Positions 4,233-7,319 of a stretch of 10,251 nucleotides of DNA are shown piece after piece; the first letter of the stretch is position 1, and each line of letters opens with the position of its first letter. The stretch lies in the NCBI GenBank assembly GCA_024683255.1, contig JAIKYL010000231.1:1-10251 (forward strand), in the 5' to 3' direction. Position numbers and translations under genes: made by a program. Below the pieces are notes generated by a model. That model was not told the origin of the DNA and made no database searches. It worked only from the letters and a program-made list of their open reading frames with translations. Source of the DNA: Bacteroidales bacterium. GTDB taxonomy: Bacteria > Bacteroidota > Bacteroidia > Bacteroidales > UBA932.

Positions 4233-4966
4233 CATCTCTCATGGCCGCCGCCCTTCTGGCATCGGCCTGCCTTAATTCCGGCACTGTTTCCCAGGCCGAA
4301 TATGACCAGCTCCTCCAGGAGTATTCGGACCTCCAGGCGGGGGCCGAGGCTACGCGGGCGGAATATGCCGCCCAGGCCGCTGCGGTGGACGTCATCCTCC
4401 AGGAACTGTCCCAGATTTCCGGGAAGACGGTAAACCTTAGGACGGACATTGAACTGGGAACCGCCCAGCTCACGCAGGTGGAGCAGATCCAGGATAGCAT
4501 AGACAGCATTAAGGACAAGCTGGACCAGCTGGAAAAAGAAGGCGCCCAGTACAAAAAGACCATCCTGAGCCTCCGGAAGGTTATTACGGAGAAAGAGGAA
4601 GAGATTGAGCTGCTAAAGGCGGAGATTGAGGCCAGGGATGCCACCATCTCCGAGCAGCACCAGACCATCGCCAGCCAGCAGGAAGCCATTCAGACGCAGC
4701 ATGAGACCATCGCCACCCAGCGGGAGAACCTGCGTGCCGCCGTTCAGGAACAGGCCCAGATGCTTTTCCAGGCAGGCGTGGACTTTGAGGACCTGGGAGA
4801 TAACGCCCCCCAGATGAGCTGGCGCAAGAACAAGGAAAAGATGAAGGACCTTACCCGGGAAATGTATGAGAAGGCCATCACTTATTACCGCATGGCCCAG
4901 GAGACCGGTTATCCGGAGGCCGCATACCGCATTTCTCAGGTGGAAGAAAAAATGGCTAAGCTATGA
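4214..4966 (+). CDS. Coiled-coil lipoprotein with C-terminal TPR/Sel1-like helices
   Basis: The 250-aa product has a lipoprotein signal (LLASAC, Cys19), so it should be membrane-anchored in the envelope. Residues about 25-180 are almost entirely predicted helix with heptad-like spacing, including four consecutive 7-residue repeats at 144-171. Residues about 210-245 (MYEKAITYYRMAQETGYPEAAYRISQVEEKM) resemble a TPR/Sel1-like helix pair, suggesting protein-protein contact. No catalytic motif is seen. AGGA at 4204-4207, 6 nt before the ATG, supports the start. The stop overlaps the hddA start as ATGA. A structural or scaffolding envelope role is inference. Confidence 0.82.
   Translation: MRTLKIASLMAAALLASACLNSGTVSQAEYDQLLQEYSDLQAGAEATRAEYAAQAAAVDVILQELSQISGKTVNLRTDIELGTAQLTQVEQIQDSIDSIKDKLDQLEKEGAQYKKTILSLRKVITEKEEEIELLKAEIEARDATISEQHQTIASQQEAIQTQHETIATQRENLRAAVQEQAQMLFQAGVDFEDLGDNAPQMSWRKNKEKMKDLTREMYEKAITYYRMAQETGYPEAAYRISQVEEKMAKL
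4643..4726 (+). repeat. Four tandem 21-nt repeats encoding heptads
   Basis: Residues 144-171 of the coiled-coil lipoprotein read TISEQHQ, TIASQQE, AIQTQHE and TIATQRE: four 7-residue units in a row, corresponding to four diverged 21-nt units. They form part of the coiled coil and could expand or contract in frame. Confidence 0.75.
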
Positions 4967-5982
4967 TAGTTAGAAGCAAGGCGCCCCTTCGGCTGGGCCT
5001 GGCCGGCGGCGGGTCGGACGTATCGCCGTACAGTGACCTCTATGGCGGGAACGTGCTCAACGCCACCATCAACCTCAATGCATACTGCACCATAGAAACG
5101 CTGAACCTGCCTGTGGTGCGGGTAGATGCGGCCGATGCCGGCATCCGCCGGGAAGTGTCCATGGGGACGGGGCGGATGGATTCGGGTGCGCTGCTCATAG
5201 ACGGGGTGTACAACCGCATCATCCGGGACTACGGACCCGTGCCAAGCGGCTTTGCCATAACCACTTACAACGACGCTCCGGTGGGCTCCGGCCTGGGAAC
5301 CTCTTCCACCATGGTGGTGTGCATCCTCAAGTGTTTTGCCGAATGGATGGATTTGCCGTTGGGAGATTACGAACTGGCCCGCCTGGCCTATGAGATCGAG
5401 CGCAAGGACCTCCTCCTGTCCGGCGGCAAGCAGGACCAGTATGCGGCAGCTTTCGGCGGTTTCAATTTCATGGAATTCCTGCCCAGCGATATGGTAATCG
5501 TGAATCCGCTGCGCATCAAAGAGTGGATAGTGGAGGAGCTGGAAGGCTCCCTCCTGCTGTATTATACGGGCCGGAGCCGGGACGGCGCGGCCATCATCAG
5601 TGAGCAGCAGAAGGCAACATCGGCCGGTAAGGTGGAGGCCGTGGAGGCCATGCACCGAATCAAGCAAAGCGCCGTAGATATGAAGCTGGCGCTGCTGCAG
5701 GGCAATATGTCCCGCTTTGCGCAAATCCTGGGATCGGCCTGGGAGGACAAGAAGAAGATGGCCGATGCCATTACCAATCCCATGATCCAGGAGGCCTTTG
5801 ACGTGGCCCTGGAGGCCGGTGCCATCTCCGGCAAGGTGTCCGGTGCGGGCGGCGGCGGCTTCATCATGCTAATGGTGCCGCCTACCAAGCGGGTAGCCGT
5901 CAAGGAAGCACTGTCCAAGCTTCCCGGCAAGGTGGTCCCGTTCCAGTTCACCCAGAAAGGTGCCGTAGCATGGAAGTTATAG
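4963..5982 (+). CDS. hddA: D-glycero-D-manno-heptose 7-phosphate kinase (GHMP family)
   Basis: This 339-aa cytoplasmic kinase phosphorylates D-glycero-D-manno-heptose 7-phosphate at C1, giving the alpha-1,7-bisphosphate of the GDP-heptose pathway. The N-terminus (APLRLGLAGGGSDVSPY, residues 7-23, then VLNATINLNAY) is the HddA signature. The GHMP ATP loop is PVGSGLGTSS (106-115), GGKQDQYAA (154-162) carries the likely catalytic Asp, NFMEF and NPLRIKEW are family-typical, and the third GHMP motif is VSGAGGGGF (292-300). Length matches the family. Its ATG lies in the ATGA overlap with the preceding stop, and its own end overlaps the next gene by 13 nt. The next gene supplies the following two steps. 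Confidence 0.95.
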   Translation: MIVRSKAPLRLGLAGGGSDVSPYSDLYGGNVLNATINLNAYCTIETLNLPVVRVDAADAGIRREVSMGTGRMDSGALLIDGVYNRIIRDYGPVPSGFAITTYNDAPVGSGLGTSSTMVVCILKCFAEWMDLPLGDYELARLAYEIERKDLLLSGGKQDQYAAAFGGFNFMEFLPSDMVIVNPLRIKEWIVEELEGSLLLYYTGRSRDGAAIISEQQKATSAGKVEAVEAMHRIKQSAVDMKLALLQGNMSRFAQILGSAWEDKKKMADAITNPMIQEAFDVALEAGAISGKVSGAGGGGFIMLMVPPTKRVAVKEALSKLPGKVVPFQFTQKGAVAWKL

Positions 5983-7319
5983 TCCTTGCAGGCGGCCTGG
6001 GAACCCGCCTCCGCTCCGTAGTGGCCGATACGCCCAAGTGCCTGGCGCCGGTGGGCGACAAGCCGTTTTTGGGCTGGCTGCTGGAGTGGCTGGAGCTGTA
6101 TGAGGTGAGCCATGTGGTGTTTTCGGTGGGCTATCTGAAGGAACAGGTCATAGACTATGTCCAAAGCCGGGAATGGCCGTTTGCGTACGATTTTGCCGTA
6201 GAGGAAAGCCCGCTGGGAACAGGCGGCGGCATCCGCCTGGCGCTCGAGAAATGCCGTGAAAAACAGGTGTTTGTGGTAAACGGCGACACATTCTATCCCG
6301 TAGATCTAAACGCATTGCCTTTCTGCGGTCCGGTAACAGTGGCCCTAAAGCCCATGCAGGACTTTGACCGCTACGGTGCCGTAGAGGTGTCTTCTGGGCT
6401 ATCGGCATCTGCCAGGCCAGCGCCTGCAGAAAATTATTTTTTTGGACGGTGCCAAAAAAACCAATTTCCTGCAGGCAACGCAACGCCAACGCACGCAGAT
6501 GCCGATGCTACGGCGGAGCACACCTCCGTCCCACAACATGCTTCGGCCTCCGTCTTGCCCGACCTGATCGGGCATCTCCTTATAACTGCTTTCCATGAGA
6601 AACAGCCCTGCCGGAAGGGGCTCATCAACGGCGGGGTGTATGCCATAGACCGCAGCCTCCTGGACCTTTCGGGGCTGCCGGAGAAGTTTTCCTTTGAGAA
6701 AGAGGTGCTGGAGCCGGGGGCGGCCAAGGGGCGGATTGGCGGCTGGGTGAGTGATGCGTATTTCATTGACATCGGCGTGCCGGAGGACTACGAGACGGCG
6801 CAATGGGCCATCCCTGGCTGGTTTGCCGTCCGGAAGGCCTTCCAGGCCGTTTTGGCGGCCGATGCGGATACGCTGTTCCTGGACCGGGACGGTGTCCTTA
6901 ACCGGCATCTGGAAGGGGATTACGTGAAATCCTGGCAGGAATGGGAATGGATGCCGGGCATCCTGGAGGCGTTGGCTAAGTGGTCCCGGAAGTTCTCCAA
7001 TATCGTATTAGTAACCAATCAGCGCGGGGTGGGAAGGGGAGTCATGAGCGATGCGGAGCTGGGCCTGGTCCATGCCCGCATGCTGGAGGCCATAGACGCC
7101 GCCGGCGGCCGCCTGGATTTGGTACTTGTATGCACGGCTGTGGATGACGCGGACCCGCGCCGGAAGCCCAATACGGGGATGTTTCAGGAGGCATGCGCAC
7201 TGCTGCCGGATATTGATCCGACGCGCTGCATAATGGTGGGGGATTCTCCCAAGGATGCCTTATTCGCCGCCCGCTCCGGGATGCAGTTTATTCTTCTGAG
7301 TCCGGAAGGGGTTTCTTAG
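5970..7319 (+). CDS. hddC: Bifunctional heptose-1-phosphate guanylyltransferase (HddC) / heptose-1,7-bisphosphate phosphatase (GmhB)
   Basis: Residues 1 to about 290 are a sugar-phosphate nucleotidyltransferase, with LAGGLGTRL (6-14), TPKCLAPVGDKP (21-32), VNGDT with Asp106, and later LINGGVYAIDR and YFIDIGVPEDY. Residues about 302-449 are a HAD phosphatase, with DRDGV (Asp305, Asp307), TNQRG (349-353), RRKPNTG (397-403, Lys399) and GDSPKD (424-429). Together they should turn heptose 1,7-bisphosphate into GDP-D-glycero-alpha-D-manno-heptose for surface glycans. Two oddities stand out. About 62 low-complexity residues (about 143-204) interrupt the transferase between YGAVEV and ITAFHEK, matching a palindromic DNA insertion. 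The phosphatase also lacks the Cys/His zinc cluster of E. coli GmhB, keeping only Cys388. AGAAAGG lies 9 nt before the ATG. The 3' end overlaps rmuC by 32 bp. Whether the transferase is still active is not certain. Confidence 0.88.
   Translation: MEVIVLAGGLGTRLRSVVADTPKCLAPVGDKPFLGWLLEWLELYEVSHVVFSVGYLKEQVIDYVQSREWPFAYDFAVEESPLGTGGGIRLALEKCREKQVFVVNGDTFYPVDLNALPFCGPVTVALKPMQDFDRYGAVEVSSGLSASARPAPAENYFFGRCQKNQFPAGNATPTHADADATAEHTSVPQHASASVLPDLIGHLLITAFHEKQPCRKGLINGGVYAIDRSLLDLSGLPEKFSFEKEVLEPGAAKGRIGGWVSDAYFIDIGVPEDYETAQWAIPGWFAVRKAFQAVLAADADTLFLDRDGVLNRHLEGDYVKSWQEWEWMPGILEALAKWSRKFSNIVLVTNQRGVGRGVMSDAELGLVHARMLEAIDAAGGRLDLVLVCTAVDDADPRRKPNTGMFQEACALLPDIDPTRCIMVGDSPKDALFAARSGMQFILLSPEGVS
6396..6581. 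repeat. In-frame palindromic insertion element inside hddC
   Basis: These about 186 bp have no counterpart expected in the family: the transferase reads YGAVEV, should pass through a short loop, and resumes with ITAFHEK. The stretch is made of palindromes and repeats. A long hairpin lies at 6400-6507, a small CGGAG-CACAC-CTCCG hairpin at 6514-6528, and a TGCCCGA-CCTGA-TCGGGCA hairpin at 6556-6574. CCTCCGTC occurs directly at 6523-6530 and 6547-6554. Near-identical 13-mers ATCGGCATCTGCC (6401) and ATCGGGCATCTCC (6567) mark the two ends. It has no stop in the hddC frame. The exact ends are estimates, and no target duplication was identified. Confidence 0.7.
6400..6507. repeat. Long imperfect hairpin (multi-segment inverted repeat)
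   Basis: From outside to inside, ATCGGCATCTGC (6401-6412) pairs with 6495-6506, GCCTGCAG (6422-6429) with 6469-6476, AAATT (6431-6435) with 6463-6467, and TTTTTTTGG (6437-6445) with CCAAAAAAA (6452-6460). The loop is ACGGTG. Each arm is perfect, and unpaired segments separate them. The T7/A7 tracts contrast with the GC-rich surrounding gene. This is the core of the insertion element. Confidence 0.85.

Follow-up and report, generated by a model that had tools for sequence, protein, structure and literature searches.

Palindromic repeats stacked in frame within an HddC-GmhB-like gene of a Bacteroidales bacterium

Palindromic repeats that enter pre-existing ORFs in frame are described for Rickettsia and Wolbachia (RPE and WPE), where elements of about 100-150 bp are reported to occupy solvent-exposed places and to have insertion hot spots (PMC3767692; PMC10969869). 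RPEs are cited as losing their repeat identity over time, and coding palindromes kept inside genes are reported for Nematomorpha mitochondria, where template switching was proposed to maintain the arms (PMC6649704). CGTC-tagged REPs were reported from five phyla, Bacteroidetes among them, and REPs within ORFs from several other species, in some of which they encode 20 to 82 residues (PMC3733652). The TnpA-REP subclass 2.6 of Bacteroidetes is described as flanked by atypical secondary structures (PMC6006769). Protein-invading palindromes kept in frame are so far known mainly from Rickettsia and Wolbachia, next to the shorter REPs within ORFs, and a literature search in which subscription journals were poorly covered found no report of such in-frame palindromes in Bacteroidota.

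We analyzed a window of 10,251 nucleotides, i.e., the whole stretch from position 1 to 10,251 of contig JAIKYL010000231.1 (assembly GCA_024683255.1) of a Bacteroidales bacterium. The host gene of the insert contains the Pfam families NTP_transf_3, NTP_transferase and HAD, and its nearest solved structures were HddC and heptose bisphosphate phosphatase. A GHMP kinase gene (4963-5982, Pfam) is located directly upstream, which presumably fits a heptose activation cluster. Elsewhere in the window a single ORF (29-1225) combines NUDIX and inositol monophosphatase domains (Pfam).

A sequence-only reading of this DNA had placed one palindromic element at 6396-6581, in frame and without a stop, in a GDP-heptose transferase gene. 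The interval does lie within an open ORF of 449 aa, and about 62 extra residues were found there between YGAVEV and ITAFHEK, flanked by residues that are conserved across homologues; the residues of the insert are not conserved. The nested hairpins were recovered as well. The inverted-repeat search of the window gave perfect 12-nt arms at 6401-6412 and 6495-6506 and 17-nt arms of 82% complementarity at 6429-6445 and 6452-6468, while the single-stranded DNA fold of 6380-6600 had an energy of -48.6 kcal/mol compared to a mean of -30.85 (sd 3.41) for dinucleotide shuffles (z -5.21; 0 of 200 shuffles equally good). What did not hold was that this is one element. When 6380-6600 was used as query, two of six relatives' genomes were matched in three separate pieces, 6403-6504 (A), 6499-6533 (B) and 6549-6579 (C). 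The insert is therefore a stack of three palindromic elements, A, the right half of B, and C, all read through in frame (Table 1).

Table 1. Host gene and elements of the insert, in positions of the window.
Feature	Position	Strand	Basis
Host gene, HddC-like nucleotidyltransferase + GmhB-like HAD phosphatase fusion, 449 aa	5970..7319	+	ORF, Pfam, nearest solved structures
Element A, 100-nt nested hairpin, terminal arms GGCATCTGC / GCAGATGCC	6404..6503	+	Matches in relatives, covariance model hit 6404-6503, paired changes over 60 copies
Nearly invariant core of A: TTATTTTT, variable apex, AAAAACC	6434..6464	+	
Element B, right half, encodes ADATAEHTSVP; overlaps A right arm	6499..6532	+	Matches in relatives
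Element C, CGTC-type REP, encodes PDLIGHL	6549..6579	+	Matches in relatives, motif, described class
Codons of residues 144-198, predicted disordered	6399..6563	+	AlphaFold2, pLDDT below 50

A covariance model of A was built from eight copies and run on 14 of the 15 genomes matched by a DNA query (the weakest, G454, was omitted). All 14 genomes were matched. The model search of 58 sources gave 108 rows, 29 of which were dropped as reverse-strand readings of the same place or as copies in overlapping loci, and 79 places were kept in the window and the 14 related genomes. Full copies are 100 or 103 nt long, and a single genome had up to 22 matches. The sequence-only reading had made a new class of protein-invading repeat conditional on recurrence in other genes and had taken the lack of a second copy in this genome or its relatives as an argument against its proposal; copies were found many times over, in other genes and in frame, in the relatives' genomes that were searched.

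The places were sorted by the spanning ORF and Pfam, for hddC, the HAD phosphatase and CitC-CitG also by orthologues, and a call of in frame required an open ORF. Sorted in this way, 47 of the 79 places lie in frame, and their host enzymes are recognisable and belong to 16 kinds: HAD phosphatase, CitX, CitC-CitG, HddC, HI0933-like flavoprotein, RnpA, MutY, DNA alkylation repair, nucleotide-sugar dehydrogenase, SpoU methylase, RmlB-like dehydratase, AtpG, alanine-racemase-like, RibF, TrpC and glycosyltransferase family 2. The other 32 were not securely in frame. Twelve of them were probable or unresolved, namely three probable in-frame places (an ORF without Pfam match, with ends common to G001 and G519/G523), two uncertain ones near the N terminus of AtpB and seven unresolved ones; 20 looked intergenic, 19 of these among the 22 of genome G034 and one in G001. 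No copy was noticed to break a recognised gene among the 79 places, which is not a systematic count, and the in-frame call needs an open ORF. Calling frames by codon usage was too weak and the Pfam and orthologue evidence was used instead; codon usage put 17 places in frame, left 60 without a two-sided call and gave one between opposite strands and one with a stop (L031, otherwise read as between two genes), and its call at L028:789 conflicts with the probable reading there. Many of the A copies in the G034 loci L122-L137 are shorter, without closed end arms, and lie just downstream of a GTCATTCTGAGCG...GAAGAATCT repeat.

Insert-free orthologues exist for three of the host genes, hddC, the HAD phosphatase and CitC-CitG. 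The segment of the HAD phosphatase from MVGHG to the next YY has 34-37 residues in nine genomes and 50-155 residues in G001 (two versions), G517, G519/G523, G425, G520 and G433. In G425 the A copy is turned the other way round, and the G433 insert is without A. The CitC-CitG fusion has at least five insertion places across species. From the sequences, orthologues with and without inserts point to repeated gain. One ORF on the minus strand (L162:4630-6033) joins an HAD phosphatase to an aminoacyl-tRNA editing domain and carries three A copies.

A was found in one Bacteroidales genus, in close relatives only. The exact core matched one of 393 genomes of the order, which was G001 itself, and the model, under strict filters, one of 295 genomes, while within the genus the DNA query, scored on no more than three candidates per genome, matched at least 15 of 250 genomes. 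As A-like peptides are present in the CitC of G043 and G011, two genomes outside the 14, the counts understate how widespread A is in the genus. Rfam gave no match to 6350-6650 up to E = 1, plasmid and phage records gave none to 6396-6584 (distant mode), and the exact core was absent from viral contigs.

To describe covariation we used the 60 best-scoring copies (from 45 of the 58 sources, E up to 2e-8), in an alignment that was fitted to the structure and leans towards it. In these copies 93.8% of the pairing cells form a pair compared to 80.0% in shuffles, both partners have changed in 24 of the 32 pairs, and the score for covariation was 0.305 compared to 0.095 when shuffled and 0.024-0.054 when slid. 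The TTATTTTT...AAAAACC core hardly varies, and the apex and arms covary. The A hairpin is thus kept via paired, compensatory changes. Both selection on the folded strand and template-switch repair fit such changes. Of 25 closed-arm copies, 15 remained complementary for one or more pairs beyond the element, and six of them for three or four pairs. The named sources are metagenome-assembled, and in one bin, G001, contigs C151 and C180 (L016, L020, L034) carry the HAD phosphatase and DNA alkylation genes each in two versions with different A inserts, suggesting mixed strains. An assembly artefact of metagenome bins could be read from a gene that is present in two such versions, but diverged and covarying copies are found in 14 genomes and in protein clusters from several sources, so that this explanation is extremely unlikely.

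The reading frame of A was found to be biased. The core was readable in 45 of the 47 in-frame copies, and 40 of these used one frame, four another forward frame, none the third and one the reverse strand; copies inherited together with one gene are not independent counts here. The dominant frame gives the peptide ...NYFSGRxPKNQF... In the 70 copies with a length of 80 nt or more, the three forward frames were open in 50, 63 and 56 copies and the reverse frames in 40, 18 and 41, with a mean of 3.83 open frames per copy compared to 2.88 in shuffles, and all six frames were open in two of 70 copies (0.85 expected). Freedom from stops alone does not explain the frame bias. Stable, conserved hairpins inside genes could also be palindromes that are left out of the protein by skipping or removal at the level of RNA or of translation, like the bypassed hairpins of yeast mitochondria, and palindromic elements are reported as bypassed in Magnusiomyces mitochondria (PMC6649704). 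Bypassing would, however, not require one frame in 40 of 45 copies, and a preference at the peptide level fits translation better; in addition, the 47 places are in frame and free of stops, though they were partly chosen that way. We find bypass very improbable.

The loop that carries the insert in the window varies greatly between HddC proteins. Of 4494 homologues found, 120 were listed and the loop could be parsed in 118, with lengths from 12 to 125 residues among these matches. A recognisable A, B, C or D module was present in the loop of 75 of the 118 listed homologues, A being in 61 of the 75 and read from the reverse strand in 10 of the 61. A further 16 of the 118 loops were longer without a module call, and several look like decayed remnants. 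In 27 of the 118 listed homologues the loop has 17 residues or fewer, and the insert-free turn of other HddC proteins consists of a few residues, e.g., FDRYGAVDWDGDLVTGFREK. Conservation of the insert in distant HddC proteins, the other result that the sequence-only reading had set against itself, was accordingly not seen, and the nearest solved HddC chains (5xhw and 6jq8, single-domain, 225-237 aa) align without it. The beta-turn is an insertion hot spot. Loops in L046-L057, P0069, P0076 and P0077 vary in length, and some (ATPTHADAL) resemble footprints of a mostly deleted A.

The modules appear stepwise in homologues. P0003 has C only, P0002 has half of B and C, and P0001, which is 97% identical to the window protein, has A, half of B and C, as does the window. 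These protein sequences suggest an order of arrival in hddC. In an AlphaFold2 model of the host protein, based on 44 sequences, the window's own and those of 43 of the 120 listed homologues, the mean pLDDT was 82.6 and both domains were folded, while residues 144-198 had pLDDT below 50 between the strands 137-141 and 201-209. In HddC the insert is thereby predicted to be a disordered surface loop at an exposed place, which is what the sequence-only reading had proposed to check with a model. The dominance of one A frame and the recurrent NYF..KNQF peptide could mean that the peptide itself is under selection and the inserts serve as functional protein segments, with hairpin DNA as a by-product. 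This is very improbable in our view: the loop is short in the 27 listed hddC homologues mentioned above and in the HAD phosphatase of nine genomes, different and reverse-strand elements occupy the same loops, A is also found between genes (20 places), and the insert is predicted disordered.

Elements B and C also recur in relatives. There B is a palindrome of about 70 nt, found in full in L037. Its right half, as query part 120-154, gave nine matches in the genomes of two relatives, all in frame and located in six ORFs (two HddC, two HI0933-like, CitX and MutY). Query part 170-200 gave four matches of C in two relatives, and the C motif was located at 6552-6577 with three mismatches allowed. 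Within element C a CGTC precedes a TTGCCCG...CGGGCA hairpin, which is the 20-40 bp size and the tag of CGTC REPs. The sequence-only reading knew of no such family in Bacteroidota; this agrees with the literature search above for in-frame palindromes of the present kind but not for C, as CGTC REPs are a described class reported to include Bacteroidetes (PMC3733652). In the fetched loci 43 matches to the C or D motif were found. A adjoins C- or D-type REPs in 21 of 77 places compared to about 2.8% expected from their density in the same loci, with the REP upstream in 19 and its orientation the same in all 21. Thirteen of the 21 pairs are in G034, where A and the REP may have been copied together. 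In a methionine synthase ORF (L027:668-3028, minus strand), a C-type REP sequence is read in frame in the stretch that links the B12-binding domain to the activation domain.

ORFs for Y1 transposases are frequent in the clade. They reached the cut-off in 13 of the 14 genomes that bear A and in 9 of 16 others. This contrast is weak, and the 16 are not all free of A, as they include G043 and G011 with their A-like peptides. The A core was absent from 20 Y1 loci searched; in 38 Y1 loci, with mismatches allowed, the only A copies were those of L191-L193, which lie in a neighbouring gene at about 1-2 kb from the Y1 ORF. As no fetched Y1 gene was directly flanked by A in these loci, a Y1 transposase was rejected as adjacent partner of A. 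Long nested hairpins follow Y1 ORFs in L197, L199 and L208 (downstream) and also in L183 and L202, three of them with AATCCTCC...GGAGGATT; their layout is like that of A and their sequence unlike it. Twenty-five A copies of at least 95 nt had 8 or 9 of 9 terminal pairs, i.e., terminal inverted repeats as in MITEs, and no autonomous transposon sharing the ends of A was found beside the fetched Y1 genes. Direct repeats of 2 nt flank six of 25 closed-arm copies (chance would give about 1.6), of 3 nt one of 25 and of 5 nt none of 25. Neither a transposition event nor an exact empty site of A was seen.

Altogether, these observations make it very likely that non-autonomous palindromic repeats were stacked at a tolerant turn of the HddC-GmhB-like enzyme, where their translation gives a disordered loop. 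That they form an in-frame repeat family is the part of this explanation of which we are most confident. A, half of B, and C would have entered one after another at the surface beta-turn, and the repeats would be translated as part of the protein. Copies presumably arise by transposition, and selection would remove those that break the frame or disturb a folded region. The most likely mover would be a HUH (Y1) transposase of the TnpA-REP kind that acts in trans and recognises the hairpin as single-stranded DNA; we consider movement by Y1 possible rather than probable. Template switching would most likely help to keep the arms complementary. A further reading, which we find rather unlikely, is that A is a genomic parasite adapted to life inside proteins. 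Its folded core would be copied while one frame is tuned to the harmless disordered peptide NYFxxxxxKNQF, so that it could enter conserved enzymes, pile up with other palindromes at turn hot spots and reshape the proteome; the site-specific complementary arms, some running into host sequence, would be as left by fold-back or template-switch copying.

In the Bacteroidales case there are several repeat families and many host enzymes, and the inserts grow stepwise at the same turns. It can now be tested by what means such repeats move, what makes enzymes tolerant of them and whether new protein segments regularly come from repeat DNA. The repeats also explain long odd loops in proteins of the clade, which in annotation could be mistaken for real features.

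Compared to known systems, C resembles CGTC REPs in size and tag, whereas A and B are longer than CGTC or GTAG REPs and lack the tag at their ends: REPs are 20-40 bp with a GTAG or CGTC tag, and A has 100-103 nt and ends in GGCATCTGC / GCAGATGCC or site-specific variants. The Y1 ORFs of the clade are like TnpA-REP subclass 2.6 in often having nested hairpins alongside, but A flanks none of them directly, and the likeness is one of layout rather than a subclass assignment. The arms of the Nematomorpha palindromes encode conserved residues of the gene, while those of A encode extra residues. The sequence-only reading had likened the insert to Rickettsia palindromic elements, and this comparison gained from the multicopy A in 16 kinds of enzyme. 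Like RPE and WPE, A is a multicopy palindrome in the size range of about 100-150 bp that entered pre-existing ORFs without loss of frame (47 of 79 places), and its peptide, in the HddC model, is predicted to lie at an exposed place; unlike them it is found in another phylum, and its hairpin has a nearly invariant core with covarying apex and arms. By analogy, A behaves like the Rickettsia palindromic elements, and the likeness meant here is one of behaviour.
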